DNA from: a virus | Virus record (IMG/VR): IMGVR_UViG_3300036900_000199 | Span: 1-44,934 of that record | Length of the DNA: 44,934 bases | Reading direction: 5' to 3' (one strand) | Shown: positions 13,696 to 32,535 of the stretch, piece by piece | Layout: the number at the start of each line of letters is the position of its first letter | Position numbering within the stretch: the first letter of the stretch is position 1 | Translations under genes and position numbers: made by a program | Notes under the pieces: model-generated | Told to the model about the DNA's origin: nothing | Database searches by the model: none | What the model saw: only the letters and a program-made list of their open reading frames with translations

Positions 13696-13842
13696 CTAAC
13701 CGCCAAGCTCTTCGACCTTGCGCAGCAGCATCTGCCGCGAGGCTTCGAGTTCGCCGATGCGCTTCTCGTAGTCGTAGCGCTGGTAGATGATCCAGGCGAC
13801 GAGCGCCAGGATGACGGCCAGGTCGAACCAGTCGATGCTCAC
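13696..13842 (-). CDS. 48-aa membrane/coiled-coil protein
   Basis: A 48-residue protein starting at GTG 13842, overlapping the previous stop as GTGA. Residues 6-19 (FDLAVILALVAWIIY) form one membrane segment. The remainder is a charged helix (YEKRIGELEASRQMLLRKVEELGG) with heptad spacing. It is the last gene before the terminator. Function unknown. Confidence 0.6.
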   Translation of the reverse strand: MSIDWFDLAVILALVAWIIYQRYDYEKRIGELEASRQMLLRKVEELGG

Positions 13843-14093
13843 GAGAGCTTGCCTTTCGCGATAGCCGCGAGGGCGCCCGGGTTGCTCATTGACTGGTAGG
13901 CCTCAAACGCTGCCATAGCGTCGCGCCTGGTCGTGTAGGTTCGCGATGTCTCCGCGACTCCGTTGCACACGAGCGCGACGACCCACTGCTTTGGGCCGAA
14001 GCGTCGAAGCTCAGCCCATATCGGGTGGTCGGTGTTCATGATGGTGCGGTGGCCGATGACGTGCTCGCGCATCGGCGCGTACTGGCCGCTCAC
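13839..14093 (-). CDS. 84-aa protein, function unknown
   Basis: An 84-residue protein. The frame is open further upstream, but that part is a shadow of the XRE gene. GTG 14093 overlaps that gene's stop as GTGA. 'WAELRRFGPKQWVVALVCNGVAETSRTYTTRRDAMAAFEAYQ' suggests a two-strand and helix unit such as a small alpha/beta domain. No family recognised. Confidence 0.55.
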   Translation of the reverse strand: MSGQYAPMREHVIGHRTIMNTDHPIWAELRRFGPKQWVVALVCNGVAETSRTYTTRRDAMAAFEAYQSMSNPGALAAIAKGKLS

Positions 14094-14398
14094 GAGGCGG
14101 CCTTCTTCTGCGCCTTCAGCGCAGCCTTCTTCTCGGGGATGCCCTGGGCGATCTCCTTCAGGTGACGCTTGTGCGCCAGCTTCTCTTGCTCGCGCCGCAG
14201 GCGCCGCACCACGCGCTCGCGGTTGCCGGAGATCTGCTCCAGGGCGAGCATGGTGTGCTGCGGGAGACGGGTGTTGCCCTGTTCCCAGTTGTAGATGGTC
14301 TTGACGTGCACGCCCAGGAGCGTGGCGAGTTGGGTCTGGCTCAGGAACTGCGCCTCCCGCCACTGGCGCAGCGCGTCGCCGTCCTCAATCGGAAACAT
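14090..14398 (-). CDS. XRE-family transcriptional regulator
   Basis: A 102-residue protein. Residues 7-62 form a Cro/C1-type DNA-binding domain of the NadS/XRE type: 'DALRQWREAQFLSQTQLATLLGVHVKTIYNWEQGNTRLPQHTMLALEQI'. The tail is a long basic helix rich in Arg, Lys and Ala. GGAGG lies upstream, and its start overlaps the preceding gene by 14 bases. It may regulate the leftward operon that encodes it. Confidence 0.85.
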   Translation of the reverse strand: MFPIEDGDALRQWREAQFLSQTQLATLLGVHVKTIYNWEQGNTRLPQHTMLALEQISGNRERVVRRLRREQEKLAHKRHLKEIAQGIPEKKAALKAQKKAAS

Positions 14399-14660
14399 GG
14401 TGAACCTCCGGGTGGCTGCCCAGGTTGTAGTGTTGGGCGTAGTGCACGCGACGGCGGCGGCCCATCCAATCGGCGGCGAGGTCCACGTTGTCGCAGGCCG
14501 TTACCTGTTCGTGACCTTCGCGCCACACGATGCGGCCATCGACCTTGACCACGCCGTCGGGCGTGTTGCCCACGATCAGGGCGGCGTCCTCCGCGTAGCG
14601 CAGGCTGGCGACGTGCTCGCCAGCGGTGCCGTAGACCTTCCAAACAAGTGCGGATGCCAT
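14385..14660 (-). CDS. 91-aa protein, function unknown
   Basis: A 91-residue protein from ATG 14660. The start lies at the end of the GAGTAG start-associated sequence, where AAGGAGAG provides the ribosome binding site and TAG is the stop of the upstream gene. The protein has a strand-rich first half ('LVWKVYGTAGEHVASLRYAEDAALIVGNTPDGVVKVDGRIVWREG') and a basic, His-rich C-terminus. No family recognised. Confidence 0.6.
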   Translation of the reverse strand: MASALVWKVYGTAGEHVASLRYAEDAALIVGNTPDGVVKVDGRIVWREGHEQVTACDNVDLAADWMGRRRRVHYAQHYNLGSHPEVHHVSD

Positions 14661-14665
14661 CGGAA

Positions 14666-14875
14666 CTACTCTCCTTCGAGGCAGATAGCGCAGTGCAGGC
14701 GCGCGCCGACGTACGGCATGCGCTCGTGCTCTGCGAGGCGGTACGGGCGCCACTCGTAGGTGTGCCCGCAATCGAAGCTCACGCGGCCGGCGCGGGTGAT
14801 GCGCCCCCGGATGAGCGGCTGGTAGCGATGCGCGTTAGGGCGCCAGGCGGTGACGGTTCGCTCAGCGCTTGTCAC
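14666..14875 (-). CDS. 69-aa cysteine-containing protein
   Basis: A 69-residue protein starting at GTG 14875 (GTGA overlap). 'FDCGHTYEWRPYRL' and 'LHCAICLEGE' supply Cys-x-His and CxxC ligands for one zinc ribbon. Its last two codons GAG TAG form the core of the start-associated sequence for the next gene, so stop codon and translation signal are merged. Confidence 0.55.
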   Translation of the reverse strand: MTSAERTVTAWRPNAHRYQPLIRGRITRAGRVSFDCGHTYEWRPYRLAEHERMPYVGARLHCAICLEGE

Positions 14876-15174
14876 CGCGTCAGGAGGTCGGTGCGGATGG
14901 ACTCCGGCGCCATGACGCGCACGAGGCTATGGCCACGCGCCAGGTCGGCGACCCACACGCTGCCGTGGGCGGTGCTGCCGCCGTAGAACGAGATATCGAA
15001 CCATTCGAGCTTGGCGATAAGCGCCTCAGCGGCAGCCCGGTGGTTGTCCCACGAGTTGAGCGCGTGATCCAGCGGGATGGTGACGCTGGCGGCGTGGTTG
15101 CCCAGGGTGGTGGCTTTGATGCGACCGCCGCGCGTGTTGGTGGGGCCGAGGTAGCGGGTTTCGATTGCGTCCAT
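14872..15174 (-). CDS. 100-aa protein, function unknown
   Basis: A 100-residue protein from ATG 15174, preceded by structured cassette 1. The sequence 'TRYLGPTNTRGGRIKATTLGNHAASVTIPLDHALNSWDNHRAAAEALIAKLEW' recurs in phage proteins of unknown function. 'FYGGSTAHGSVWV' follows. It probably adopts a compact alpha/beta fold. It overlaps the next gene as GTGA. Confidence 0.65.
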   Translation of the reverse strand: MDAIETRYLGPTNTRGGRIKATTLGNHAASVTIPLDHALNSWDNHRAAAEALIAKLEWFDISFYGGSTAHGSVWVADLARGHSLVRVMAPESIRTDLLTR

Positions 15175-15262
15175 GGTTGGAACTACTCTCCAATGCGTTG
15201 GAATCGCACGGGCTTGTGACCGTGCTGCCGCATTACCCCGGCTCAGCCGGGTTCACTCTGCG
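15175..15262 (-). promoter_or_regulatory. Structured start-associated cassette 1
   Basis: On the minus strand it holds, in order, CGCAGAGTGA, which includes the stop of the upstream gene. Hairpin 1 follows (CCCGGC 15237-15242 with GCCGGG 15246-15251), then AATGCGGCA. Hairpin 2 has loop TCACAAGC (GCACGG 15206-15211 with CCGTGC 15220-15225). Hairpin 3 carries GGAGAGTAGT between TTGGA and TCCAA, ending four bases before ATG 15174. Confidence 0.8.
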
Positions 15263-15444
15263 TGAGAGCGTTCCGCGATCAGGTCGCGCAGGGCGCCGAG
15301 GGTTTCGACGCACGCGGAGTACTCGTCTATGTGGCCTTGCGTCTCTTCGCGCGGCACGCGTGCATCGTTGAGCACGCGCTCAAACGTGCGCAGGTTGCGG
15401 TTCAGTCGCTCAATGGCGAAGTCGAGAGCTTCTACGCTGTTCAC
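15253..15444 (-). CDS. 63-aa helical protein, function unknown
   Basis: A 63-residue protein starting at GTG 15444, overlapping the previous stop as GTGA. It is almost entirely helical and charged: 'EALDFAIERLNRNLRTFERVLNDARVPREETQGHIDEYSACVETLGALRDLIAER'. Its last codons GCA GAG TGA lie inside the conserved box of cassette 1. No family recognised. Confidence 0.55.
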   Translation of the reverse strand: MNSVEALDFAIERLNRNLRTFERVLNDARVPREETQGHIDEYSACVETLGALRDLIAERSHAE

Positions 15445-15656
15445 GCGTCCACCTCCGCGAGCAGCCCGGGGTACGTGGCGCAGCCGGTGCAATCCGGCAC
15501 GGTGCAGACGATCTCGTTGAGGTCGTCGGCGTGGTGATACTGGCGCGCGACCAGGCGCAGCGCTTCAAGGACGCGGATCTCGGCAGCGAAGCTATCGCCG
15601 TGGTCTTTGAGGGCGGAAATGGCGACGCCAATGGCGAATGGAGCGGAGGGGTTCAT
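15441..15656 (-). CDS. 71-aa protein, function unknown
   Basis: A 71-residue protein from ATG 15656, immediately after cassette 2. The N-terminal part is helical (AIGVAISALKDHGDSFAAEIRVLEALRLVARQYHHADDLNEI), and the C-terminus has CTVPDCTGC, which may bind metal. It overlaps the next gene by four bases. Confidence 0.55.
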   Translation of the reverse strand: MNPSAPFAIGVAISALKDHGDSFAAEIRVLEALRLVARQYHHADDLNEIVCTVPDCTGCATYPGLLAEVDA

Positions 15657-15746
15657 CGTTCTACTCCCGATGAATGCGGGATGGTTTGGCCGGGCTTGTG
15701 ACCGACCTGCCGCATTAGCGCTAGCCGGGGCTAGCGTCACTCTGCG
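15657..15746 (-). promoter_or_regulatory. Structured start-associated cassette 2
   Basis: Same order as cassette 1. Hairpin 1 is CGCTAGCC paired with GGCTAGCG. Hairpin 2 keeps loop TCACAAGC (15694-15701) with arms GGCCGG and CCGACC, one mismatch in six. Hairpin 3 is the second type, ATCG...CGAT enclosing GGAGTAGAA, directly before ATG 15656. Confidence 0.8.
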
Positions 15747-15747
15747 C

Positions 15748-16140
15748 TTACGCGTCCACCTCCGCGCCGTTAGCCGTGAGTGTGTCGCGGATGAAGGCGT
15801 CCAGGGTTCCCCCGTCCAGGCGCTGCAGGTCGCCATTGAGCAAGCCGAGCATGGCGTGCCCGATGGCTGCCCACTCCGGGCCAAGCACGCCGTCATCGCC
15901 GATGGGCGAATCGTAGGCGTCACGGTGAGCCTGGGCATACGTTGCCCATCCGCGCAGCATGGCGACGATAGCGGCTTCAAAGCCGGCGCGTGGCGCCGTC
16001 ACGGCGTCGTTGTGGCGACGCTGCCAGTTGCCGGTATTGGGCAGGCGAGGGTTAGCGAGCGGCACGATGCTGAGCGCCGGGCCGATGCCGCGAGGATCAA
16101 ACACGGTGTCCCCGTCCGGGGTGTCAGTGAAGTAAGGCAT
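15748..16140 (-). CDS. 130-aa protein, function unknown
   Basis: A 130-residue protein from ATG 16140. Sequence readable further upstream belongs to cassette 3, not to the protein. Beta-rich start ('MPYFTDTPDGDTVFDPRGIGPALSIVPLANP'), then helices ('HNDAVTAPRAGFEAAIVAMLRGWATYAQAHRDAY' and 'GPEWAAIGHAMLGLLNGDLQRLDGGTLDAFIRDTL'). Similar proteins of unknown function occur in actinophage early regions. Confidence 0.6.
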   Translation of the reverse strand: MPYFTDTPDGDTVFDPRGIGPALSIVPLANPRLPNTGNWQRRHNDAVTAPRAGFEAAIVAMLRGWATYAQAHRDAYDSPIGDDGVLGPEWAAIGHAMLGLLNGDLQRLDGGTLDAFIRDTLTANGAEVDA

Positions 16141-16237
16141 TGGAACTACTCTCCAAAGTTGGCCATGCGGAGGCCGGATGTGCCTGGGCTTGTGACCAGG
16201 CTGCCGCATTACCGGGGCAGTGCCCCGTCACTCTGCG
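16141..16237 (-). promoter_or_regulatory. Structured start-associated cassette 3
   Basis: Hairpin 1: CGGGGC with GCCCCG, three-base loop. Hairpin 2: GCCTGG (16182-16187) with CCAGGC (16196-16201) around loop TCACAAGC. Hairpin 3: TTGGA...TCCAA around GAGTAGT. The CGCAGAGTG box immediately follows the upstream gene's TAA. Confidence 0.8.
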
Positions 16238-16564
16238 TTAGGCGAGTGCGCTGATACGTGTGTCGGCGGGCAGTTCGCCAAACTGGGCGCGCAGGTCGTC
16301 CGGCAGCGCTGCCCATTGCTCGCCGGCGATGCCGCGAACGTACGCCTCATTGTTGTCGAAGTAGCCATACTCGACACCCCATAGGCCGTCGGTAATCGCG
16401 TCCAGGTCGTACCCCTCCGCGCGAATCGTGGCCTTGACGCGCACTCCAACGTAGCGCCATTCGTCGTTTTTCCACGCCGTGATATCGGCTGCGTCGTAGC
16501 AGTCGAACTCGTCCGGGCGTGTGTCGTAGTCGGGTAGCAATTCGATGGTGAATGTGGCGGACAT
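16238..16564 (-). CDS. 108-aa acidic protein, function unknown
   Basis: A 108-residue protein from ATG 16564. 'MSATFTIELLPDYDTRPDEFDCYDAADITAWKNDEWRYVGVRVKATI' reads as a beta-strand domain, followed by 'GLWGVEYGYFDNNEAYVRGIAGEQWAALPDDLRAQFGEL'. Comparable phage proteins with a 'GLWGIE' stretch are of unknown function. Cassettes stand on both sides. Confidence 0.65.
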   Translation of the reverse strand: MSATFTIELLPDYDTRPDEFDCYDAADITAWKNDEWRYVGVRVKATIRAEGYDLDAITDGLWGVEYGYFDNNEAYVRGIAGEQWAALPDDLRAQFGELPADTRISALA

Positions 16565-16649
16565 TGGAACTACTCTCCAGCGGTCAGAATTGCCTGGGCT
16601 TGTGACCAGGCTGCCGCATTACCCCGGCGCGTTACCGGGTCACTCTGCG
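16565..16649 (-). promoter_or_regulatory. Structured start-associated cassette 4
   Basis: Hairpin 1: CCCGG with CCGGG; the TAA stop of the upstream gene lies in its loop, so the CGCAGAGTG box is inside coding sequence here. Hairpin 2: GCCTGG (16592-16597) with CCAGGC (16606-16611), loop TCACAAGC. Hairpin 3: TGGA...TCCA around GAGTAGT before ATG 16564. Confidence 0.8.
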
Positions 16650-16856
16650 CAGTGTTTCGTACCAAACCGGGTTCGCCTCGCTCCGCGCGTTGAGCGCGTC
16701 GTAAATGTCCTTGGCGTTGTCTTCGAGCGCCGCGTACCCGTCCAGAAGGGGCGAGGCACGGAACCCCATGCGCCTCAGTCGGGTGATCACGTCGTACTGT
16801 CCCCAATCGTGCGCCCAGACGTACCAGGCGCTGCAGATATCGAATCGGTCAAACAT
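16632..16856 (-). CDS. 74-aa protein, function unknown
   Basis: A 74-residue protein from ATG 16856, which overlaps the previous stop as TAATG. 'MFDRFDICSAWYVWAHDWGQYDVITRLRRMGFRAS' followed by helices ('YAALEDNAKDIYDALNA') and 'NPVWYETLRRVTR'. Similar short proteins are known in phages without assigned function. Its end runs into cassette 4. Confidence 0.6.
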   Translation of the reverse strand: MFDRFDICSAWYVWAHDWGQYDVITRLRRMGFRASPLLDGYAALEDNAKDIYDALNARSEANPVWYETLRRVTR

Positions 16857-17068
16857 TAGTCGCGGCTCCAATAGGACACGCTGCCATCGTTGCCCGTGCA
16901 GCGAATCAGGTACTCGAACGGGTATGCCCAGTGTGTGGAGGAGACTACGTCCACCTTGCACGCGACCGGGCGTCCGTGCTGCTGTTCGTACTTGCGCATC
17001 ACCCGGCGCATGGCGCGGGTAGCTGCAGCCTCATTGCGATAGTGGAGAATCTCGTTTCGACGTGCCAT
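16856..17068 (-). CDS. 70-aa basic protein, function unknown
   Basis: A 70-residue protein from ATG 17068 after cassette 5. A basic helix (RNEILHYRNEAAATRAMRRVMRKYEQQHG) is followed by strands ('PVACKVDVVSSTHWAYPFEYLIRCTGNDGSVSYWSRD'). It may bind nucleic acid. It is coupled to the next gene through TAATG. Confidence 0.55.
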   Translation of the reverse strand: MARRNEILHYRNEAAATRAMRRVMRKYEQQHGRPVACKVDVVSSTHWAYPFEYLIRCTGNDGSVSYWSRD

Positions 17069-17152
17069 CGTTCTACTCCCGATGTGCGTTAGCGTTCGCC
17101 GGGCTTGTGACCGGCGTGCCGCATTACACCCGGCGAACCGGGCCACTCTGCG
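17069..17152 (-). promoter_or_regulatory. Structured start-associated cassette 5
   Basis: Hairpin 1: CCCGG with CCGGG; on the transcribed strand the loop is TTCG. Hairpin 2: CGCCGG (17097-17102) with CCGGCG (17111-17116), loop TCACAAGC. Hairpin 3: ATCG...CGAT around GGAGTAGAA before ATG 17068. Confidence 0.8.
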
Positions 17153-17626
17153 CTAGTAGCGAATCATGCGAGCGCTGTTGTCCGGGCAGACCGAGACAAC
17201 GAGCAAGTAGGTTCCGACGCGGAGGCGATGCTCCGACTTGTCTTGTCGGAAGACGTGCAGCACAAGCTCGTCCAGATTGAGCCCGGCGTCCTTGACGTAC
17301 CCGTTTGAATTGGCGCGCCACTCCATCGACAGCACGTCCCCCACGCGGAGCGACTTGACGGCCGTGCGCCATTCCTCGTTGAACTGCGCGGACTGAATCA
17401 GTGCGAACGCACTGTTGTACTCGTGAGCATCGGAGTACTTGGTGATGCGGCTGCTGGCCGGGATGCAAAGCTCGCCCCGCGTCTCGTACACGCCGTCGCG
17501 TTTTTCGAGAATGGCGCGCAGCTTGTGCTCGCCGTCGCGCATGTGGCCAAAGGCCACCATCGTGGCGCCTTTGAGCGCCTTCACATCTTCGGCCGTCAGC
17601 GTATGGAACTCGGTAACCGTGGACAT
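17153..17626 (-). CDS. 157-aa protein, function unknown
   Basis: A 157-residue protein from ATG 17626. It is beta-rich: 'VKALKGATMVAFGHMRDGEHKLRAILEKRDGVYETRGELCIPASSRITKY' and 'RVGDVLSMEWRANSNGYVKDAGLNLDELVLHVFRQDKSEHRLRVGTYLLVVSVCPDNSARMIRY'. No catalytic pattern is evident. It is the longest gene of this operon and sits between cassettes 5 and 6. Confidence 0.65.
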   Translation of the reverse strand: MSTVTEFHTLTAEDVKALKGATMVAFGHMRDGEHKLRAILEKRDGVYETRGELCIPASSRITKYSDAHEYNSAFALIQSAQFNEEWRTAVKSLRVGDVLSMEWRANSNGYVKDAGLNLDELVLHVFRQDKSEHRLRVGTYLLVVSVCPDNSARMIRY

Positions 17627-17717
17627 CGTTCTACTCCCGATGTATGCGGGATAGCTTGCCCGGGCTTGTGACCGGGCTGCCGCATTGATCCGGGGCGCAA
17701 ACCCCGGCCACTCTGCG
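17627..17717 (-). promoter_or_regulatory. Structured start-associated cassette 6
   Basis: Hairpin 1: CCGGGG with CCCCGG. Hairpin 2: GCCCGG (17658-17663) with CCGGGC (17672-17677), loop TCACAAGC. Hairpin 3: ATCG...CGAT around GGAGTAGAA before ATG 17626. Confidence 0.8.
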
Positions 17718-17719
17718 CG

Positions 17720-17980
17720 TTAGGCGAGAAAGTCCACTGGCCAGAATCCGTAATCGGAGCCATCGCCAGGATGCGCACCAAAGTACGTACCCTCCGGGGC
17801 GAGCGCGTCGAGTGCGTCGAACAGGCACTCAAGCAAGTCGTCTGCGTCGGCCGCGTTGTAGCCATGCTCGTCATACTCAACGCGCAGCTTGTGTGAGGCT
17901 GGCAATTCAGCCATAAACGCGGGGATCAAATCGCTGGCCAGCATCGTGCCGGTGCTTACCGTGCCAATTTCGTACGTCAT
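17720..17980 (-). CDS. 86-aa acidic protein, first gene of the cassette operon
   Basis: An 86-residue acidic protein from ATG 17980: 'MTYEIGTVSTGTMLASDLIPAFMAELPASHKLRVEYDEHGYNAADADDLLECLFDALDALAPEG', then 'YFGAHPGDGSDYGFWPVDFLA'. Net charge is strongly negative, which could fit a DNA-mimic or inhibitor, but there is no direct evidence. It is the promoter-proximal gene of the leftward operon. Confidence 0.6.
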   Translation of the reverse strand: MTYEIGTVSTGTMLASDLIPAFMAELPASHKLRVEYDEHGYNAADADDLLECLFDALDALAPEGTYFGAHPGDGSDYGFWPVDFLA

Positions 17981-18125
17981 CGTTCTACTCCCGATGTGTA
18001 GCGTTGCCCGGGCTTGTGACCGGGCTGCCGCATTGCCACCTAGTGCTCAACTTGGTTTCTGACGTTTCCAGCCGGCCATCTCTACGCGCCTTGCGATACA
18101 TTGCAGCACTTGGTGTCACTCTGCG
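17981..18125 (-). promoter_or_regulatory. Structured start-associated cassette 7 (extended)
   Basis: Hairpin 2: GCCCGG (18006-18011) with CCGGGC (18020-18025), loop TCACAAGC. Hairpin 3: ATCG...CGAT around GGAGTAGAA. Hairpin 1 is enlarged: CACCTAGTGCT (18037-18047) pairs with AGCACTTGGTG (18105-18115), one mismatch in eleven, across 57 bases. The CGCAGAGTGA box ends the unit although no gene lies upstream. Confidence 0.75.
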
Positions 18126-18682
18126 CATCGAACGGGCAGCGTTTACTTGCGAGCCGTCCGGTCTGTGAGCGGGCTTACGCACCGTGCCCATACTGGCGCT
18201 CACTAACAGCAGACTGCTGCCTAGGTTCTATCGTTCGATGGAGTGTTGGGTGGTGAGCGACTTACCACGCTGCCGTTTCTGGCAGACGTAGTGTGCTCGA
18301 ACCGTTCGCACACTGGACACTGGGCGCTGCTACTCGTTATCGCTCCGGGGCTTGTCCTACTCCGAACCACTTTCCGAACGGGTAGGGTTGCACGGTTCCG
18401 CATCCTAGCTGCCAGGTTCTAGTTCGCTCCACTCTTGGCTTGTCTGGCCAGTGAGCAACCTCGCTTGTGATGCACGCCGTGGTCGGGCGAGATGCCTTCG
18501 CATCGCCGGGTCACTTGTGTGCTGGCCGCTTGAACTAGCCCCTTGCCTTGCATGCGCCCCGATTCGCACGGATGCGGTTCACTCGCTTGTCTGGCGAGCC
18601 CCGCACGCTGGTCGCGTTTGGTAGGTGACCTCTTGGTCGGTTGGTGTCTTGTCCGCCCCTTGCGGTTCGGCCGACGACGGGA
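18126..18682 (-). other. Gene-free leader of the leftward operon
   Basis: No credible gene in either direction. The stretch is rich in small hairpins, for example CTGCC/GGCAG (18270-18285), GTGTG...CACAC enclosing CGAAC/GTTCG (18291-18313) and GATGC/GCATC (18491-18504). Degenerate echoes of the cassette words occur, such as ATCGTTCGAT, GGGCTTGTCCTACTCC and CGCTTGTGA. It may be a long structured 5' leader, a non-coding RNA, or decayed cassettes. No tRNA cloverleaf was convincing. Confidence 0.5.
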
Positions 18683-18711
18683 ACTATGGGGCATGGTTGC
18701 AAAACTTGCAA
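18683..18711 (-). promoter_or_regulatory. Candidate leftward promoter for the cassette operon
   Basis: On the minus strand TTGCAA (18711-18706) and CATAGT (18688-18683) are separated by 17 bases, each matching the sigma-70 consensus at four of six positions. Two direct repeats, ACTTGCAAGGGT (18704-18715) and ACTTGCAGGGGT (18726-18737), lie 22 bp apart over and upstream of the -35 site, as an operator would. Confidence 0.45.
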
Positions 18712-18999
18712 GGGTATTCCGCAAGACTTGCAGGGGTGATTTGATCTCAAATCGTTCTCAGCGAGATTGCCACGGTTTGTGACGGTTGCTAACGCCCTCA
18801 AACTGGCTCAGTCGGTTTCGTTAGCAATTGCGCAGGGTTTCCAGTTCGGAGCGAGTAGGCGAGACGCAGCAGCCAGCGCTGATTCAGGCTGAAAGTGCCA
18901 GGGATATGCCCCGTCATATCCCACACCTGCGCCCACGGAAACATGCAGGCCATCTCACGTGGATTTGGCGGCCTGCAGACACCACCCGTGCCTTGCGAC

Positions 19000-19009
19000 C
19001 CCCGGGGTG
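19000..19009 (+). repeat. CCCCGGGGTG repeat, copy 1
   Basis: One of three exact 10-bp copies near the small terminase; copies 2 and 3 are at 19333-19342 and 19395-19404. Each contains the palindrome CCCCGGGG followed by TG. Confidence 0.5.
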
Positions 19010-19240
19010 TCCCGGGCCTATCGGTGTCTGGCGTCGGTGTCTGCAGCTAGCTGGCCAGGGCTGCGCATCTCAGGTGTGTCACTCCCTGCGACACCAACAA
19101 GGTGTGGCAGTAGTTCGCTTCAACCCTGGACGCGCGCGAGCGCCACGTGGCGACCGTGGGGGACGGGGCGCCCGGGGCGGGGGACGGGTGGCACCATCGC
19201 GGGGCGGGCTTCCCTGGCGCGCATCCTTGATGTTGACCCC

Positions 19241-19267
19241 TGAAAAAATTCTGTATCGGCGGGGAGG
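19241..19267 (+). repeat. 27-bp direct repeat, copy 1
   Basis: TGAAAAAATTCTGTATC followed by GGCGGGGAGG. The AT-rich block is exceptional in this GC-rich genome. The partner starts at 19303, 62 bases away. Confidence 0.7.
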
Positions 19268-19302
19268 TCGCTCCTGAGACGGCGTCTCTGAAACCCCGCC
19301 TC

Positions 19303-19329
19303 TGAAAAAATTCTATATCCGGCGGGAGG
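19303..19329 (+). repeat. 27-bp direct repeat, copy 2
   Basis: TGAAAAAATTCTATATC followed by CGGCGGGAGG, differing from copy 1 at a few positions. The pair could be binding sites for the terminase or a regulator, or A-tract promoter elements. Confidence 0.7.
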
Positions 19330-19476
19330 GGACCCCGGGGTGGCCCGCGACTGGAAGGCCTGGGAATATGGAGGCGGCCCGCCAGCTTTTTCCTCCCCGG
19401 GGTGGCTTCAGTCTACACGCCGTTCTGACATGTCACCGGTAGAGACGCGCGCGCGCGAGGGAAACTGAGTTCAATT

Positions 19477-19529
19477 TGATATCATTCGTTGTCAAAAAGT
19501 GACAACTTTTGATAGCAAACGTGATATCA
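19477..19529. promoter_or_regulatory. Operator-like palindrome cluster over the RHH gene start
   Basis: TGATATCA occurs at 19477-19484 and 19522-19529. Between them GTTGTC (19488-19493) and GACAAC (19501-19506) are inverted around seven bases. The GTG start at 19499 lies inside. Clustered short palindromes over its own start fit autorepression by the ribbon-helix-helix protein. Confidence 0.55.
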
Positions 19530-19720
19530 AAAGGGTCCTCGTGCGCATGCCGCTGGCACTCTACGCCGATATCGTTGATGAGGCTGATCGGCGGGGGCTG
19601 AGCATCAACCGTGAGGTCATCCGCAGGCTCAAGCTCAAGCGCTGGAGCAACCAGGCGGATTACAGCCGACGCCGCACTCCGCCTATACAACCCCTCAACG
19701 GCAGCCTGGACTTCGACTAG
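19499..19720 (+). CDS. Arc-like ribbon-helix-helix DNA-binding protein
   Basis: A 73-residue protein starting at GTG 19499. Residues 11-46, 'KRVLVRMPLALYADIVDEADRRGLSINREVIRRLKLKR', follow the Arc pattern: strand, helix, 'RGLSINRE' turn, helix. The beta strand needs residues before Met17, which supports the upstream GTG over later starts. The tail is basic then acidic. It overlaps an operator-like palindrome cluster. Its stop overlaps that of the convergent small terminase gene in one CTAG. Confidence 0.75.
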   Translation: MTTFDSKRDIKRVLVRMPLALYADIVDEADRRGLSINREVIRRLKLKRWSNQADYSRRRTPPIQPLNGSLDFD

Positions 19721-20178
19721 AGCACCTCGGCGGGATCGAAGCCGGCGACGACCTTGACGATGGGTTGCGTGACCGTCACGTCCGTGCGCTCGCGGAACTT
19801 CTCGGGGCGCAAGGCCTTGAGCATCAAGGTCAGGAGTTGGTCGGAGTACTGGGTGATGTACCCCGCCAGCAGGCCACCCTGGTACACCGGGGTCTTCACC
19901 CCCTTGAACGCGCGGCGGATGGCTTCGGCTTCCAGGCGGTCGGCAAGCTGGTCGCGTGCCCACTTCTCCTTCACGAGGAACTCGGGGTCGGCTTCCCGCC
20001 AGCGCATCAGCATGCTCATCGGCGCGCCGACCTTCGCCAGCGCGGCCGTCACCGTGAAGTAGTTCGGCAGCGCTTCGAGGTACGCGACCTTGGCTGCCTC
20101 GGGGTCCTTGAGGTGACGCGTGCGCGTGCGGCGGTTCGGGATCTGCGCTTCCACGCTGGCCATGGTTCGGGTGGGCAT
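19717..20178 (-). CDS. terS: Terminase small subunit-like protein
   Basis: A 153-residue protein. 'EALPNYFTVTAALAKVGAPMSMLMRWREADPEF' is a helix-turn-helix of the kind in phage terminase small subunits and 'helix-turn-helix' packaging proteins. 'LEAEAIRRAFKGVKTPVYQGG...YSDQLLTLMLKALRPEKFRERTDV' follows, a distinctive run in this family. Small terminases bind the packaging site and recruit the large subunit. It is unusual that it lies on the opposite strand from the large terminase, 54 bases away and divergent. No clear ribosome binding site precedes ATG 20178 or ATG 20163. Confidence 0.75.
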   Translation of the reverse strand: MPTRTMASVEAQIPNRRTRTRHLKDPEAAKVAYLEALPNYFTVTAALAKVGAPMSMLMRWREADPEFLVKEKWARDQLADRLEAEAIRRAFKGVKTPVYQGGLLAGYITQYSDQLLTLMLKALRPEKFRERTDVTVTQPIVKVVAGFDPAEVL

Positions 20179-20232: not shown

Positions 20233-21642
20233 GTGACCGCAGCCCTGCGTCCGCAGCGAGCCGCAGCGAGACGTAGGACGACGACCACTGGTGATACGAC
20301 CGACGCCATTGCCGACACAGTCCGCGTAAGACCGCAGGAGTCCGCTTACAGGCCGTATGGGGCTGCTGCGGAGCTAATGCGCTTCCGGGGGCGCGAGGTG
20401 GTGCTCGCTGGACCCGCCGGCACCGGGAAAAGCAGGGCGGCGCTGGAGAAGCTGTCGTTCGTGGCCTACCACGCGCCCATTCGGGCGGCGATCGTCAGGA
20501 AGGTCAGGAAGTCGCTCACCCAGGCGGCGCTGGTGACCTTCGAGAAGAAGGTGCTGCCGGAGCCCTCGGGGGTGAGGTTCTGGACCGAGGATCAGGAGTA
20601 CCGCTACCCCAATGGCGCGGTCATCGCCCTGGCCGGGCTGGACGACCCCGAGAAGGTCAAATCAACGGAATTCGATTTGATTTATGTGCAAGAAGCTACG
20701 GAACTCGACCAACTCGACTGGGAACTGCTCGTGTCCCGACTCCGCAACGGTGTGCTCAGCTATCAGCAGATCATTGCAGACTGTAACCCCGCAGATCCGT
20801 ATCACTGGCTCAAGCAGCGTTGTGACCGTGGTGAGTGTTCGCTGCTCGATACACGGCATGAGGACAACCCACTTCTATACGATCACGTACTGGGGGCCTG
20901 GACCGACTTCGGCGAGCAGTACCTCAAGACCCTCGACACCCTCACCGGCTACCTGTACCAGCGGCTGCGGCTAGGCCTGTGGGTGGCCGCCGATGGCATG
21001 TTCTTCACCGAGTGGAACCCCGAGGTCCACATAGTCGAGCCGTTCGAGATCCCCGACCACTGGCCCAGGTGGATCGCCGTGGACTACGGCTACCAGGCGC
21101 CCTGGTGCGCCCTGTGGTTGGCCAGGGACCCCGAGGGCAGCCGTCCCATCTACGTCTACCGCGAGCGGTACGGCGCGGGGCTGCGGGACGAGGAGCAGGC
21201 GGACATCATCTGCGAGGTGTCCCAGGACGAAAACATCGTTGCCAGGGTGCTCGACCCGTCGATGTTCAACGCGCGGACGGAGTCCAATCGGCCCTCGATC
21301 GCCCAGGTGTACGCTGACCACGGCGTCTGGCCGGTGGTGCCGGGTCACAACAACCGCCGTACCGGATGGGCCACACTCCGTCGCGCGTTGGCCTGGGATG
21401 ACGGCGTCGCCCTGGGCCACGCGCCCTCAGTGCCCCGCCTGCGCATCTTCGAGGGCCGCGCCCCCAACCTCGTGCGCACCCTGCCAGCCATGGTGCACGA
21501 CCCGCTCGATCCCGAGGACGTGGCCGACAAGCTGCACGGCACCAAGACCGAGGACCACGCCCCCGACGCGCTCAGGTACGCCATGAGCGTTGAGAGCGCG
21601 CCCGAGCCAAGCCAGGAGATCGGGACTCTCCAGTGGGGATGA
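20233..21642 (+). CDS. terL: Terminase large subunit
   Basis: A 469-residue packaging motor and nuclease. Walker A is GPAGTGKS at 60-67, and Walker B with the catalytic Glu is 'FDLIYVQEATE' (Glu154). The RNase H-like nuclease shows Asp284 (WIAVDYG), Asp341 (VLDPS) and Asp445 (HAPDALRYAM). It belongs to the Terminase_3/PBSX-like group by motif order. It begins the rightward late operon with GTG 20233 and only a weak AGG upstream. The late promoter is probably in or near 20179-20232 but was not identified. Confidence 0.95.
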   Translation: MTAALRPQRAAARRRTTTTGDTTDAIADTVRVRPQESAYRPYGAAAELMRFRGREVVLAGPAGTGKSRAALEKLSFVAYHAPIRAAIVRKVRKSLTQAALVTFEKKVLPEPSGVRFWTEDQEYRYPNGAVIALAGLDDPEKVKSTEFDLIYVQEATELDQLDWELLVSRLRNGVLSYQQIIADCNPADPYHWLKQRCDRGECSLLDTRHEDNPLLYDHVLGAWTDFGEQYLKTLDTLTGYLYQRLRLGLWVAADGMFFTEWNPEVHIVEPFEIPDHWPRWIAVDYGYQAPWCALWLARDPEGSRPIYVYRERYGAGLRDEEQADIICEVSQDENIVARVLDPSMFNARTESNRPSIAQVYADHGVWPVVPGHNNRRTGWATLRRALAWDDGVALGHAPSVPRLRIFEGRAPNLVRTLPAMVHDPLDPEDVADKLHGTKTEDHAPDALRYAMSVESAPEPSQEIGTLQWG

Positions 21643-26519: not shown

Positions 26520-26704
26520 CAGCCGTCGCCTTCAGTCTCCCGAAAGGCATCCTCGTCTACCAGGCGAACTGCGGCGACTGCCGGGGGAGATTCGGCGTGA
26601 TGTGTGCCGAACCTCCGGATGAGATCACGCCCACGTATTGCCCCTTCTGCGCACGTCGCGTCACCTTCCGCCTGGCGAGCCATAGGGAGGTGCCTGCCGA
26701 GTGA
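26516..26704 (+). CDS. 62-aa zinc-ribbon protein
   Basis: A 62-residue protein from GTG 26516, overlapping the previous stop (GTGA). 'CGDC' (residues 19-22) and 'CPFC' (42-45) give a zinc ribbon. It lies inside the virion gene series, just before the giant protein, and overlaps that gene by four bases. Function unknown. Confidence 0.6.
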   Translation: MTAVAFSLPKGILVYQANCGDCRGRFGVMCAEPPDEITPTYCPFCARRVTFRLASHREVPAE

Positions 26705-29700
26705 CGATGCTGCCGGACATCGACCAGACCGACTGGGACCAATACCAGCAGGAGAAGCTGCAGCAAGACCTGAAGACCAAGATCGACTCCTTTGGAGTCG
26801 GTCAGATGCTGCAGGAAAAGATCAGCGACCTCCAGAGCCTGGTAGGGGCGCACCCGGAGCCTCCACCTCCGGCACCGACACCACCTCCACCGGAGCCGAC
26901 CCCGGCGCCGCCGCCACCCGAACCGACGCCGGCTCCGGCACCCTTACCTCCTCCGGAGCCTGAGCCGGCGCCAGCCCCGCTCACCACGGCCGCACCCCCG
27001 ACGCCTGACCAGGCACTGCCGGACACTGCGCAGGCTGCGCCGTTCGATCAGGGCAGCCAGGACCAGGCCCCCTTGCCGGCCCCGGCGCCCGCGCCCGCGC
27101 CGCCTGCCCCAACACCAACACCAACACCAATCCCATCACCAGCGGCCACTCCCTCCCGAGCGACCGGTAGCGACGACTGGATTGGCAGTATGTTGGGGCA
27201 GGTTGCAGCGGCGGGTGGAAACGTTCAGCAATTCGCCTCTAACTTCAATTCGCGTGCCGACGATGCGGTCGGGAGTGCCCTGGGCGCTGCCAGCGCGGCC
27301 GGTGCGAACATCCAGCAGTTCGCCTCGACGCTGACCGCGCCGCCACCAGAACCCGTCCCCACCAGTAGCGCCGCAACGTCTGGCGGGACGCTCGGGCCGT
27401 CGGGGGCCTCCAGTGTGTCGGGGGTCCCTGACTGGCTCGCGACGCTGATCGCCAAGAACACCCCGGACCCGAACCTGGCGAATGATCCCGACTTCATCCG
27501 CACCGTGGCTGCCGGTTCCAAGGCTGAGTCGGGGTGGGACCCCAACCGCGTGCAGAACGGCTTTGCGATGGGCAGCGGCAAGGGCGCGCGCGGGCTGTTC
27601 CAGTTCGACATGGGTGGTATGGGCGCGGGCATCCCCGAGGAGCAGTTGCTCGGCGACGCCGGTGCCGAGTTTCAGGCGTCCAAGATCGTGCCGATCTACG
27701 CCAAGGCGTACGCCAGCGCGCCTGGCAACCTGAGCGGCGCCGAGAAGGCGTCCTGGGTCGCGGCGCAGGCTGAGCGCCCGTATCAATTCGACAATCCGAA
27801 CTCGGCCGCACGTCGGAACTACGCGGCTGCATATAACGAGATAGGCGGCAGCGACCAGCCCATCTGGCAGAAGGCCGGCAACGCCGTGGTCAGCAAGGCG
27901 CAGGATCTGGCCGGCAGCGTGTTCCCGCTGCCGGACTGGAAGGGCGCCGTGCAGGATCACTGGGGCTCGGTCAAGGGCGGCTCGGATCTGTTCGCGCCGC
28001 GCGGCACGCCGGTGATGGCGATGCAGGGCGGCAAGGTTGTGGAGTCCGGCTACAACAGCGTCGGCGGCAACAGCGTCCTGATCCAGGGCAACGACGGCCT
28101 GCAGTACTACTACGCCCACGGCGACCAGGCGCCCTCGGTCAAGGTCGGCGACGTGATTGGTCCAGGCACCTTTCTCATGCCCGTGGGGGACACGGGTGAC
28201 GCCAAGGGCACCGGCACCCACCTCCACCTGGGCATCGGTCCGGACATCAAGCTCGGCGCCGACAAGTACGGCGGCACCGGCGGCGACTACGACGCGGTGT
28301 CGATGCTCCAGAACGCGCTCGCCGGGCAGCGCGGCCAGCAACAGCCGCAAACCATGACCATGGGACCGCAGGCGATCGCGCAGTCCACCAGCCAGGCGGA
28401 AGGCTACGAGCCCGGCAGCATCCTCGACAGCCTGGGCCAGGCCAAGGATTCGCTCACCAGCCGCCTGAGCGGTGCTGGCCGTGGTGCTCAGGACGCGCTC
28501 ACCGACATCTACGGCAACCTCACCTCGGCCGCCCTGGGCGCTAGCCCGTCCGCGCCGACGGATCTGAGCAAGCAGTACCCGTCGGCCCAGACGCCGGTGC
28601 TGGACGACTTGCGCCAGAAGGCCTCCAGCGCCCTGGACGACTACAACACCAACGTCCTGCAGGGACCGGGCTCGCTGCGCAACCCCGAGAACCAGAACCT
28701 GCGTACCGCGCTCGCCGATCGCGGACTGCCGTCCACGCCGACCGAGGTGAGCGGCCCGATCGACCCGAGCACGCCCCTCGGCCGCATGGAGGCTGGCCAG
28801 GACCTCGACCCGCTCGAAGTGGCCCAGGCCACGCTCCAGGGTGTGCAGCGCATCGAAGCACTGCGGCGCAAGGACATCGAGGCAGCCAACCCGCTGCGCG
28901 ACGTGCCGGTCGTGGGCGGCGGGATCAACCTGGCGGCCGACATCGCCACCGATCCGCTCAACCTGATCGCCATGGGACCCGCCGGACGGGTGGGCGGCGC
29001 AGCGGAGGACATCGTCGCTAGCCGTCTCGGCCAGGGCGCACTCGGCCGACTGGGGGCGGGGGCTGCCAATCAGGCGGTGCAGGGTGCACTGCTCGGCGGC
29101 CTGGGGGGTGTGGAGGAACCGGGCGCTACGCCTGGCAGCGTGCTGGAGCAGGCGGCGGGTGGGGCACTGCTCGGCGCGGGCATCCACGCCGCAGGCACCG
29201 GCGCGGTAGCTGGAGTACGCGGCGCGGCTGATGTGCTCTCCAACCCGGACGTGCAGGCCGTGTTGCGCACGCGTCAGGCGGGCCAGGCGGATGTGAACGC
29301 GGCCCTGGGCGGCATCCCTGGCCTCATCGACAAGGCGGGCAACATGCTCGGCCGCGACGGCACGCCGATTGTGGAGGCCAACGGCAAGCTCGCCAGCAAG
29401 CCCACCGATCTCGAAAGCTCGCTCATCATCCCCAACAAGCTGAGCAGCGATCCGGTGCAGATCGTCAGCCCCGGCGGCAACCTGCTCTCCACGGTGGCCA
29501 GGAGCGACATCCCCCGCTTCTCGCCTGGCGCAGGCCAGCCGGTGAGTGAGATCACGCGCAGTCTCATGGGCGCCGAGAACCTGAACCCGCCGTCTGCCGA
29601 AACCCTGGCGCGCATGCCGAACCTGATGCACATGGCCGTCGGCTCGCCCGACATCCAGGCCAGCTTGCAGCGCTTCGCCGAGGACAACGGTCACCTCATC

Positions 29701-32535
29701 GACCAGTACCGCCAGGGCGTGCGCACGCGCGACCAGTTAGTGAACGAACTGGCTCCGGCGCTCGGCATGACCAAAGACGACTTTCTCAAGTCCAAGGTCG
29801 GCCAGGCCTTCAACGACGCGGAACTGGTGTCGCTGCACGCGGCGGTGGTGGACTCCAAGAGCGGGCTCCAGAACTCCGCGCGGGAGATCTTGGACAAGGG
29901 CGGTGTCGGCGCCATGAACGACTCCGACAAGGTCGCGCTGCTCGGCCAGATCAACGACGCCAGCCGCCTGCAACTGGTGGGGCGCGGCGCGGATGCCACC
30001 GCTGGCCGGGCGCTCAATTCCCTGAAGACGAACATGACGCGCGAGCTTGCGCGCAGCATCACCGGCGGCAACGAGGCCACGGCCGCCGCTGCCGACCTGG
30101 CCAGGTCCACCTCGCGCGCCGCGCGCAGCAAAGCCGTGGGCGATGCCGTGACGGACCTGCACGCCGAGCGCCAGCAAGCGGTCAACGTCGCGCGCCAGGT
30201 GCCGGATCGAGGCAAAGCCGCCACGCTGGCGGACCAGATCAGCAAGGCGTACGACTCGCTCGGTCGCTACAAGTCGATGTCCTTGAGCGAAAAGGACGAG
30301 GTCTTCCTGCGGGAGCAGGCCGCACGGGAAGAGCGTGCCGCCGCGCGCGCCGAAGCGCTGGCCAACAAGGAACCGCCGAATGCGGAGCAGGCCGCGCGTC
30401 ACTTGCTGGACTCGCTCAACAAGGAACTCGACGCCGAGAAGAAGCACTTCCAGCGCAGCCGCGAGACGTGGCAGGACATGGGTTACCGCGCCGACAAGCG
30501 CTACGAGAACCTGTCGCGCCAGACGGACCTGAAAGGCCAGGGTCAGTACCTGCGCAACATCGAGAAGATGTACCGCCAGGAGGCCGACGCCGCCGGTCGG
30601 CGCCAGGAGAAGGCCTTCGACCGCCAGTTGCGCGGACGCGAACTCCAGACCCAGGCAGCCGGCAAGATTCTGGAGCGCATGGGCGGACGCAAGGCGAACG
30701 ACAGGGTCCTCCAGCAGTTTCTGCACGTCATGGCCAGCGGTGATCAGGCGCAGGCGGCCAACTTCCTGCGCGGCCTGTCTAAAACCAACTGGTGGGATCG
30801 TGTGCAGATCCTCCGCTACGCGGGCATGCTCTCAGCCTCCACCACCCACACCGCCCAGGCGCTCAGCAACGCGGCCAACCTGGGCATCCAGATCGGTGGG
30901 GTCCACCCGGTGGCCACGGCGATCGACGCCGCGCGCGCGGGCATCACCGGCGGTGAGCGGACGCGCTACCTGTCGGAGTGGGGGCCGATGCTGCGCGGGG
31001 CGCTCGATGGCTTTGACTCTGGTCGTCACGACGCCGCCGAGATCCTGCGCACGGGCGTCAACCCGGCGGACGTGGGCAAGAACATCGAAAACGTCCACCC
31101 AGGCTTCAACTTCCAGCAGACGCGTCTCGGTCAGGCGCTGCCCTCGGGCGTCAGCACCGGCGTCAACGTGGCAGCCGAAGCGCCGCTGCGCTTGCTGGAG
31201 GCCGGTGACGCGCTCTTCCGTGGCAGCGCGCGCGGAGCGTACGCTCGCCAGCTTGCCACGCGGCAGGCGATCAAAGAGGGCTACGCCGGTGCGGACGCCG
31301 TGGCCGAGCGCGCGCACCAGATCATGGGCAATCTAGACGAGTTCCCAGAACTGATGGACATGGCCGACAAGCAGGCGCGCAAGGTGGTGTTTCAGGAGCA
31401 CCGCTCCGACATCCCGCTGGCGGGTGGCAAGCAAGGCGCCGTGAGTGCCGTTCGCTCGATCCTGCTGCCGTTCGTACGCACGCCGTACAACGTCGCCGCC
31501 CAGGGCCTGGGCATGACGCCCGCCGGGCTACTCGGGGTGATCGCCGCCGCCAAGAACGGCGACACCAGCCTGGCCACCGAGCGCGCCGCGCGAGCGGTGA
31601 TCGGCACCGGCATCATGGCCCTCGGGCTGAAGCTCGCCGCTGACGGGCACCTGACGGCCGGCTACCCCGACAACCCGTCGGAGCGCAGCACCCTGCCCGC
31701 CGGCTGGTCGCCCTGGTCGTTCAAGGTGGATGGCCCTGACGGCCCGAGCTACATCCGCTTCAGCCAGCTTGGTGGTGTGGGTGTGCCGCTGGCGATCGCC
31801 TCCAGCATGGTGGATCACGCCAAGCGGGGCGACATCACCGATCCAGGCAAGGCCGTCTCCGCGCTCATCAGCGGCCCCGGCTCGTATCTGGTGGATCAGA
31901 CCATGCTCCAGCAGGTCCAGAACATCATGGACGCCGCCAACGACCCGCAGCACAAGGCTGAAGCCCTGCTGGAGTCCACCGCCTCCGGGTTCATGCCCTA
32001 CGGGGCACTGGGGCGCCAGATCCAGCGTGCGGGGGGTGTGGCCAATCGTGACCCCAACAACGCCCTGGAAGCCATGGCAGCGGTCTACCCAGGCCTCTCA
32101 GGCATGGTGCAGCCGAAGCTCGACGCCCTGGGTCGCACCGTCAAGCCGACGCAGACCGGCATCGGCACCTTCGCCTCTCCGCTGCCGTACTCCATCGAGG
32201 ACCAGAACAAGGCGCTCGCCGAACTCCACCGCGTGGGCGCGGGCATCAGTGCGCAGCCGGATTCGTACCGCAACCTGGCGCTCACGCCCCTGGAGCAGCG
32301 CCAGATCCAGCAGCAGACCGGCTACTACGTCAACAAGATGGTCAATGAAATGATGACCAACCCGGACTATGCGAAGCTCACGCGGGACCAGCAGCGCGAG
32401 GTGATGCGCAACATCGTCTCCAGTGCCCGAGAGGCTGGCAGTGGCGATATCCTGCGCGGACTCAGCCAGGCCGAATTGCAGCAGCGTGCCGATCAGCAGA
32501 AGACCAAGCAAGCGACGCAGGCGTACGTCGCATAA
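26701..32535 (+). CDS. Giant injection/internal virion protein with two muralytic domains
   Basis: A 1944-residue protein, by far the largest. Residues 55-165 are Pro-rich. Residues 255-385 form a lysozyme/transglycosylase-like domain with Glu276 (SKAESGW) and 'GARGLFQFD'. Residues 425-515 form an M23-type peptidase domain with 'DLFAPRGTPV', His473 (YAHGD) and 'HLHLG' (His507, His509). The middle is long and helical. The C-terminal 600 residues ('LLPFVRTPYNVAAQGL', 'AADGHLTAGYPDNPSERSTLPAGWSPWSFK') resemble the last domain of podovirus ejection and large polyvalent proteins. It would enter the host envelope with the DNA and open peptidoglycan. GTG 26701 follows GGGAGGTG. Confidence 0.8.
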   Translation: MTMLPDIDQTDWDQYQQEKLQQDLKTKIDSFGVGQMLQEKISDLQSLVGAHPEPPPPAPTPPPPEPTPAPPPPEPTPAPAPLPPPEPEPAPAPLTTAAPPTPDQALPDTAQAAPFDQGSQDQAPLPAPAPAPAPPAPTPTPTPIPSPAATPSRATGSDDWIGSMLGQVAAAGGNVQQFASNFNSRADDAVGSALGAASAAGANIQQFASTLTAPPPEPVPTSSAATSGGTLGPSGASSVSGVPDWLATLIAKNTPDPNLANDPDFIRTVAAGSKAESGWDPNRVQNGFAMGSGKGARGLFQFDMGGMGAGIPEEQLLGDAGAEFQASKIVPIYAKAYASAPGNLSGAEKASWVAAQAERPYQFDNPNSAARRNYAAAYNEIGGSDQPIWQKAGNAVVSKAQDLAGSVFPLPDWKGAVQDHWGSVKGGSDLFAPRGTPVMAMQGGKVVESGYNSVGGNSVLIQGNDGLQYYYAHGDQAPSVKVGDVIGPGTFLMPVGDTGDAKGTGTHLHLGIGPDIKLGADKYGGTGGDYDAVSMLQNALAGQRGQQQPQTMTMGPQAIAQSTSQAEGYEPGSILDSLGQAKDSLTSRLSGAGRGAQDALTDIYGNLTSAALGASPSAPTDLSKQYPSAQTPVLDDLRQKASSALDDYNTNVLQGPGSLRNPENQNLRTALADRGLPSTPTEVSGPIDPSTPLGRMEAGQDLDPLEVAQATLQGVQRIEALRRKDIEAANPLRDVPVVGGGINLAADIATDPLNLIAMGPAGRVGGAAEDIVASRLGQGALGRLGAGAANQAVQGALLGGLGGVEEPGATPGSVLEQAAGGALLGAGIHAAGTGAVAGVRGAADVLSNPDVQAVLRTRQAGQADVNAALGGIPGLIDKAGNMLGRDGTPIVEANGKLASKPTDLESSLIIPNKLSSDPVQIVSPGGNLLSTVARSDIPRFSPGAGQPVSEITRSLMGAENLNPPSAETLARMPNLMHMAVGSPDIQASLQRFAEDNGHLIDQYRQGVRTRDQLVNELAPALGMTKDDFLKSKVGQAFNDAELVSLHAAVVDSKSGLQNSAREILDKGGVGAMNDSDKVALLGQINDASRLQLVGRGADATAGRALNSLKTNMTRELARSITGGNEATAAAADLARSTSRAARSKAVGDAVTDLHAERQQAVNVARQVPDRGKAATLADQISKAYDSLGRYKSMSLSEKDEVFLREQAAREERAAARAEALANKEPPNAEQAARHLLDSLNKELDAEKKHFQRSRETWQDMGYRADKRYENLSRQTDLKGQGQYLRNIEKMYRQEADAAGRRQEKAFDRQLRGRELQTQAAGKILERMGGRKANDRVLQQFLHVMASGDQAQAANFLRGLSKTNWWDRVQILRYAGMLSASTTHTAQALSNAANLGIQIGGVHPVATAIDAARAGITGGERTRYLSEWGPMLRGALDGFDSGRHDAAEILRTGVNPADVGKNIENVHPGFNFQQTRLGQALPSGVSTGVNVAAEAPLRLLEAGDALFRGSARGAYARQLATRQAIKEGYAGADAVAERAHQIMGNLDEFPELMDMADKQARKVVFQEHRSDIPLAGGKQGAVSAVRSILLPFVRTPYNVAAQGLGMTPAGLLGVIAAAKNGDTSLATERAARAVIGTGIMALGLKLAADGHLTAGYPDNPSERSTLPAGWSPWSFKVDGPDGPSYIRFSQLGGVGVPLAIASSMVDHAKRGDITDPGKAVSALISGPGSYLVDQTMLQQVQNIMDAANDPQHKAEALLESTASGFMPYGALGRQIQRAGGVANRDPNNALEAMAAVYPGLSGMVQPKLDALGRTVKPTQTGIGTFASPLPYSIEDQNKALAELHRVGAGISAQPDSYRNLALTPLEQRQIQQQTGYYVNKMVNEMMTNPDYAKLTRDQQREVMRNIVSSAREAGSGDILRGLSQAELQQRADQQKTKQATQAYVA

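Follow-up and report, generated by a model that had tools for sequence, protein, structure and literature searches.

Analysis of the viral record IMGVR_UViG_3300036900_000199 from IMG/VR, examined as a window of 44,934 nucleotides (the whole stretch of DNA analysed), reveals that seven structured cassettes lying between small leftward genes are type-P5 twister self-cleaving ribozymes (Rfam family RF02684), with cleavage itself predicted from the sequence. The record is that of a tailed phage, with a terminase, a major head protein, a tail fibre and a RecT-like annealing protein. All seven cassettes are on the minus strand, spanning positions 15208 to 18126, and form an array that precedes nine genes. 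Family membership, an intact core, covariation and a setting that runs from the stop codon of one gene to the ribosome-binding site (RBS) of the next are read from the sequence, and from these features we infer that the twisters probably divide the leftward transcript of the phage at the junctions of translation units, giving gene-length mRNAs.

Scanning the whole window with Rfam identifies six of the seven cassettes as type-P5 twisters (RF02684) at 50.7–60.8 bits, above the curated cut-off of 37.6 bits, with E values of 1e-8 to 3e-11. In transcription order on the minus strand these are copy 2 (17660–17717; 50.7 bits, E 1e-8), copy 3 (17099–17152; 55.2 bits), copy 4 (16594–16649; 57.7 bits), copy 5 (16184–16237; 60.8 bits), copy 6 (15690–15746; 53.5 bits) and copy 7 (15208–15262; 50.7 bits). 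The low E values, together with zero RF02684 matches in 14 control genomes, exclude chance. Copy 1 (18008–18126, minus strand), the most 5′ of the series and much longer than the others, scores 26.4 bits in a permissive Rfam scan of 14300–19400, below the cut-off, because of a long insert in its P1, the first hairpin of the cassette. Its core is intact in P2, T1 and L4, with the CGCAGAGTG box, AATGCGG, the L4 loop and P4 all present, and its P1 pairs despite the insert (CACC-A-AGTGCT with AGCACT-A-GGTG). The cut is predicted at C|AATGCG in copies 1 and 2. No further Rfam family was matched in the array region, even at E = 1. An earlier, sequence-only reading of this DNA had itself stated that its proposal would be refuted if the cassettes belonged to a known Rfam family, and RF02684 is such a family.

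The composite described by that reading (a box, a first hairpin, AATGCGGCA, a second hairpin with loop TCACAAGC and an RBS hairpin) is present in all seven minus-strand copies and maps onto the twister fold. The CGCAGAGTG box supplies the 5′ strand of P2 (CGCA) and loop L1 (GAG...), hairpin 1 is P1, AATGCGGCA covers the nucleotides that follow the cut together with L2 and the 3′ strand of P2, and hairpin 2 is P4, with its loop TCACAAGC as L4. As judged from sequence, the catalytic core is the CGCAGAGTG box together with AATGCGGCA and the TCACAAGC loop, and the predicted cut site falls directly 5′ of AATGCGGCA. P1, P2 and P4 pair in the RF02684 alignments, where P1 is closed by a loop and the open ends lie between P4 and P2. 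L4 is fixed because it is engaged in two pseudoknots, T1 to L1 and T2 to L2, and pseudoknots of L4 with L1 and L2 are seen in published twister structures (PMC6154101). Within the window, P2 pairs as CGCA/TGCG and P4 has five pairs in 7/7 copies, while T1 pairs GUG with CAC, a single type common to all seven. The second hairpin that had been taken as mismatched, in the copy at 15690 (GGTCGG/CCGGCC), pairs fully as RNA with one U·G wobble.

The earlier claim of a structured RNA with compensatory change is borne out in a set of 286 sequences from viral records, the window and the cultured phage Tunturi_4, of which 281 parsed, from 116 records. The core that surrounds the cut site (AA 3′ of it, GA in L1, AAG/AAC in L4) is found in 281/286 sequences, these conserved nucleotides being what the parser required for inclusion, and in 7/7 window copies. 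The most variable position of T1, x8–y4, pairs in 280 of the 281 copies, against a mean of 131 and a maximum of 157 when partners are shuffled, and does so through four Watson–Crick pair types (G-C 145, U-A 107, A-U 18, C-G 9) and one U·G. When each record contributes a single copy, 99.6% of T1 cells are paired, compared with 27–60% when the strands are slid by one or two positions. T2 also changes in compensation across the set, from GGCA/AAGCC to GGGA/AACCC or ACA/AAGTC, and the arms of P1 keep their pairing although unrelated in sequence among copies. The base 5′ of the predicted cut is U in 262 of 281 copies and C in 15.

The ribozymes are also precisely positioned, typically starting where the preceding gene stops. 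An open reading frame (ORF) ends between −30 and +12 of the ribozyme edge in 184 of 281 copies (65%), compared with 13% at random positions, the most frequent stop ends being −1, 0, +2 and +10. A stop at +2 is a TAG built with the AG of AGCAGAG, and a stop at +10 is a TGA inside GAGTGA, as in window copy 4, which contains the TGA stop of the upstream gene 16632–16856. The AGCAGAG start with its TAG stop is shared by many ribozymes, as at L158 (G072), L142 (G056), L101 (G015) and L130 (G044), and this type of edge costs the ribozyme its first P2 pair. On the downstream side, an ATG with a Shine-Dalgarno sequence (SD) lies no more than 70 nucleotides from P4 in 84% of copies versus 21% at random positions, and the next start codon comes a median of 29 nucleotides past P4.

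In the window, ribozymes precede the genes starting at 17980, 17626, 17068, 16564, 16140, 15656 and 15174. Genes lacking a cassette had been described as those that overlap their predecessor, so that each translation unit would have one cassette; this is true of the genes whose starts lie at 16856, 15444, 14875, 14398 and 14093, and for most units, but not for the gene at 14660, which lies 5 nucleotides behind its predecessor without a ribozyme and retains the RBS box alone. That box, GGAGAGTAGTTCCGATG, which is used behind ribozymes, recurs at 14660–14680 on the minus strand near the end of the preceding gene. Before the start codon of the gene behind copy 7, the SD is carried by a hairpin, TTGGA-GAGTAG-TTCCAA (15177–15193, minus strand), of a type found at copies 4, 5 and 7; in the remaining copies the RBS hairpin is CATCG-GGAGTAGAA-CGATG, and the same RBS box is present in related contigs such as G035.

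In the mechanism that we propose, each ribozyme would fold once its P4 has been transcribed and would cut before AAUGCGGCA. Self-cleavage by this class yields a 2′,3′-cyclic phosphate and a 5′-hydroxyl. The upstream mRNA would end with the GC-rich P1 hairpin and the 2′,3′-cyclic phosphate, while the downstream mRNA would receive a uniform 5′-hydroxyl leader from AAUGCGGCA, followed by the P4 hairpin and then the RBS hairpin. The purpose would be to supply gene-length mRNAs with standard structured ends, each translated and decaying independently. In a subset of copies, a complement in the leader (P2*, CCGCAUU) could pair with the freed AAUGCGG; this would displace its old P2 partner, make the cut irreversible and fold the 5′ end into a stem immediately 5′ of the SD.

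The released downstream RNA would begin with AAUGCGG, and many leaders carry its complement (CCGCAUU, CGCAUU) just upstream of the SD; in G098 the complement is AUGUGC opposite GCACAU. With duplicates removed, a complement of at least 6 bases occurs in 35 leaders from 17 records, compared with 3.8 leaders (maximum 10) and 3.7 records (maximum 10) in dinucleotide shuffles, an approximately nine-fold enrichment in leaders. Four of the seven window copies (15208, 15690, 16184 and 17660) have a 6 or 7 base-pair complement to the product end, all on the minus strand: CCGCAT at 17644–17649 (copy 2, 6 base pairs to AATGCGG), CCGCAT at 16165–16170 (copy 5, 6 base pairs), CCGCATT at 15673–15679 (copy 6, 7 base pairs to AATGCGG) and CGCATT at 15192–15197 (copy 7, 6 base pairs). 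RNAfold places the 5′ end in such a stem for 17660 and, in the minimum-energy structure, for 15690; it does not do so, for example, for 16184, where another pairing is preferred. Matched changes accompany the motif in two arrays. One G072 copy has AATGCACG with CGTGCA where its siblings have AATGCGC with GCGCA, and the G098 copy with AATGCACTT has AGTGC where the siblings with AATGCACAT have ATGTGC. Together, the enrichment over shuffles and these matched changes make P2* a good lead, and the leader complement suggests refolding after cleavage in a subset of phages. At four other loci, L090, L126, L133 and L151 (G004, G040, G047 and G065), a second hairpin (CCGGT-CGCATT-CCGG type), similar to P4 with a changed loop, has a CGCATT complement in its loop, and a pseudoknot would form if this paired with the product 5′ end.

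Several observations weigh against parts of this scheme. Many phages have a weak P2* or none, as in most copies of G095 and G083. In a class swap, AATGCGG products pair equally with their own leaders and with those of other AATGCGG phages, and for AATGCAC products an own leader gives no higher score than a foreign one; because own and same-class foreign leaders behave alike, the swap does not prove pairing, and the leader motif shared across AATGCGG phages means that part of the P2* signal could be shared ancestry. Half of the segments between ribozymes in other phages enclose more than one gene. A promoter and terminator search of 13800–19500 returned no minus-strand site, with a total no higher than in shuffles. 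The broader proposal, that a ribozyme at nearly every gene and the P2* refold amount to a protein-free setting of mRNA ends which replaces intergenic promoters and terminators in some phages, is one that we put forward as tentative.

Other roles for the same elements can be set against segmentation of the transcript. Because P2* complements the P2 3′ strand, either fold precludes the other, and with a stop codon at the ribozyme edge a ribosome that terminates on the upstream gene would sit over the 5′ strand; both would suit a regulated switch, in which P2*, a protein or a ribosome blocks P2 folding and the uncut RNA meets a different fate. Twisters cut fast (PMC6154101), however, and P2* is made after the whole ribozyme, so that little competition is expected before cleavage. 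The Rfam scan of the array region recognised no ligand-binding domain, and we consider a switch unlikely. Circularisation of single-gene mRNAs, whether by RtcB joining of the 5′-hydroxyl and cyclic-phosphate ends or by re-formation of the twister and ligation, is less probable still. Each segment would start UGCG...P4 and end CGCAGAGUG-P1, ends from which P2 and T1 could be re-formed, and with one T1 type in all seven window copies any two ends match. P2* would compete with such re-formation of P2, though, and in other arrays the T1 types of neighbours often differ. The idea was also considered for hammerheads by Perreault et al., who sought spliced or circular products and detected none (PMC3088659).

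The view that the copies bring the phage no benefit, being selfish or passively duplicated sequences that are tolerated in intergenic positions, draws on their similarity within an array and their shared leader motifs, which make duplication probable, and on adjacent copies sharing a T1 type slightly above the level of shuffled order. It sits poorly with the precise stop-to-RBS position, with P1 arms that are unrelated but paired, and with the presence of ribozymes ahead of homologous genes in phages whose proteins have diverged by about 30%, and we regard it as very improbable. As for the new translational control element, bound by a protein or another RNA, that the sequence-only reading had favoured, the RBS hairpins in the leader are in keeping with it; the conserved loop that prompted it is twister L4, held by the intramolecular T1 and T2 pseudoknots, which leaves this explanation barely credible.

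Cutting of the transcript into gene-length mRNAs also accords with the arrays found in related phage contigs, which have 5–20 ribozyme copies. A first search pattern, with the middle T1 pair left free, matched 78 stretches in viral contigs and a second pattern 51; the first pattern gave just 19 stretches in bacterial and archaeal genomes totalling 257 billion bases, where twisters were confirmed by Rfam. Viral records with pattern matches were then searched whole with RF02684, so the array counts are not a census, the records having been chosen for holding a match. On a single strand there are 20 copies in G095, 15 in G083, 14 in G098 and 9 in G072, and one record only has ribozymes on both strands. 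Exactly one gene is enclosed by 81 of 162 neighbouring ribozyme pairs (16 of 18 in G095), and in Tunturi_4 4/4 copies lie between annotated genes. The window array genes have homologues at 43–71% protein identity in several ribozyme contigs. T1 identity as an orthogonality code between neighbours was rejected, as neighbours are slightly more alike than in shuffled order. Among cultured phages, blastn with a short consensus gave half-length matches apart from Tunturi_4; the match in Pseudomonas phage 73, downstream of the major head gene, was taken, without an Rfam run, as an unrelated hairpin, and the blastn candidate MT835922 had no Rfam match. Five twister-P5 copies also occur in a Clostridia contig (L216:1307–3499), about 3.5 kb from a transfer-messenger RNA (tmRNA) gene, and perhaps represent a prophage integrated near that gene. 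At L156:2000–2064 (G070) and L211:2832–2893, type II hammerheads adjoin twisters, so that arrays can mix classes; these mixtures agree with the proposal that such sites can be occupied by any class of self-cleaving ribozyme (PMC10085705).

The twister family itself and phage ribozyme arrays, the latter through the hammerhead precedent, are already known. The window copies share P1, P2, P4, T1, T2 and the conserved nucleotides with twister P5, six of them scoring over the cut-off, and the core shows no difference; copy 1 is unusual in its long P1 insert. Tandem prophage hammerheads, for which processing into gene-length mRNAs was proposed, cut in vitro as arrays, and an Agrobacterium array does so in E. 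coli as well (PMC3088659). Those arrays likewise have several self-cleaving ribozymes flanking single phage genes or short blocks, whereas here the class is twister, with up to 20 copies, a tight stop-to-RBS setting and a subset with the leader complement. RiboJ, an engineered insulator ribozyme, trims a leader so that a hairpin remains, with an increase in expression (PMC6206723). Trimming of the 5′ leader with a hairpin left upstream of the RBS is predicted here too, but RiboJ is a synthetic hammerhead-type element after one promoter and the window holds natural twisters between genes. In cip-cel-type selective RNA processing and stabilisation operons, a polycistron is processed between genes and the stem-loops at the ends set stability (PMC4423207, PMC10311766); the abstracts of these studies name no ribozyme, whereas the window RNA would cut itself. 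The full texts searched, which excluded the 2014 twister paper and most subscription journals, described neither large twister arrays nor the leader complement, and P2* is a possible new detail. The reason why ribozymes associate with phage genes was described as unknown in 2023 (PMC10085705), and arrays with one ribozyme per translation unit, such as the four in Tunturi_4, make a natural ribozyme role directly testable. If true, the leader refold would be a natural counterpart of engineered RiboJ insulators.

The SAS/ESAS of cluster K mycobacteriophages, which the sequence-only reading had offered as precedent, is a repeated element just before start codons. It resembles the window cassettes in being a repeated phage element before starts, and is not known to be a ribozyme; as a precedent it finds no support, since the cassettes match twister P5.

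The genes of the array are all on the minus strand. Gene 1 (17720–17980; phrog_29605) and gene 2 (17153–17626; phrog_27970) are of unassigned function and have homologues directly behind ribozymes in G035 (71% identical) and G004 (68% identical), respectively. Gene 3 (16856–17068), an ORF of unassigned function, is overlapped by gene 4 (16632–16856), which lacks its own ribozyme and has homologues in G004 and G035. Functions are likewise unassigned for gene 5 (16238–16564; phrog_5644), the ORFs of gene 6 (15748–16140) and gene 7 (15441–15656), and gene 9 (14872–15174; phrog_3199); gene 8 (15253–15444), an ORF, overlaps gene 7 without a ribozyme of its own. Four more genes without ribozymes, placed by ORFs and family scans, follow within 13839–14875 (14666–14875, 14385–14660, 14090–14398 and 13839–14093), and of these 14090–14398 encodes a helix-turn-helix regulator downstream of the array genes. 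Family scans of about 30 window proteins, a subset of the ORFs, found no RNA ligase or kinase.

About 800 bases lying 5′ of the first ribozyme (18130–18960, minus strand) lack a convincing gene and contain local inverted repeats and a stray TCACAAGC, with no Rfam match and no promoter-like site; they may serve as leader or promoter of the array transcript. Elsewhere in the window, a 1944-residue protein (26701–32535) has a metallo-endopeptidase/endolysin-like segment at about residues 420–515 and is probably a virion-associated lysin. The terminase small subunit (19717–20178, minus strand) is divergent from the large subunit (20233–21642, plus strand).

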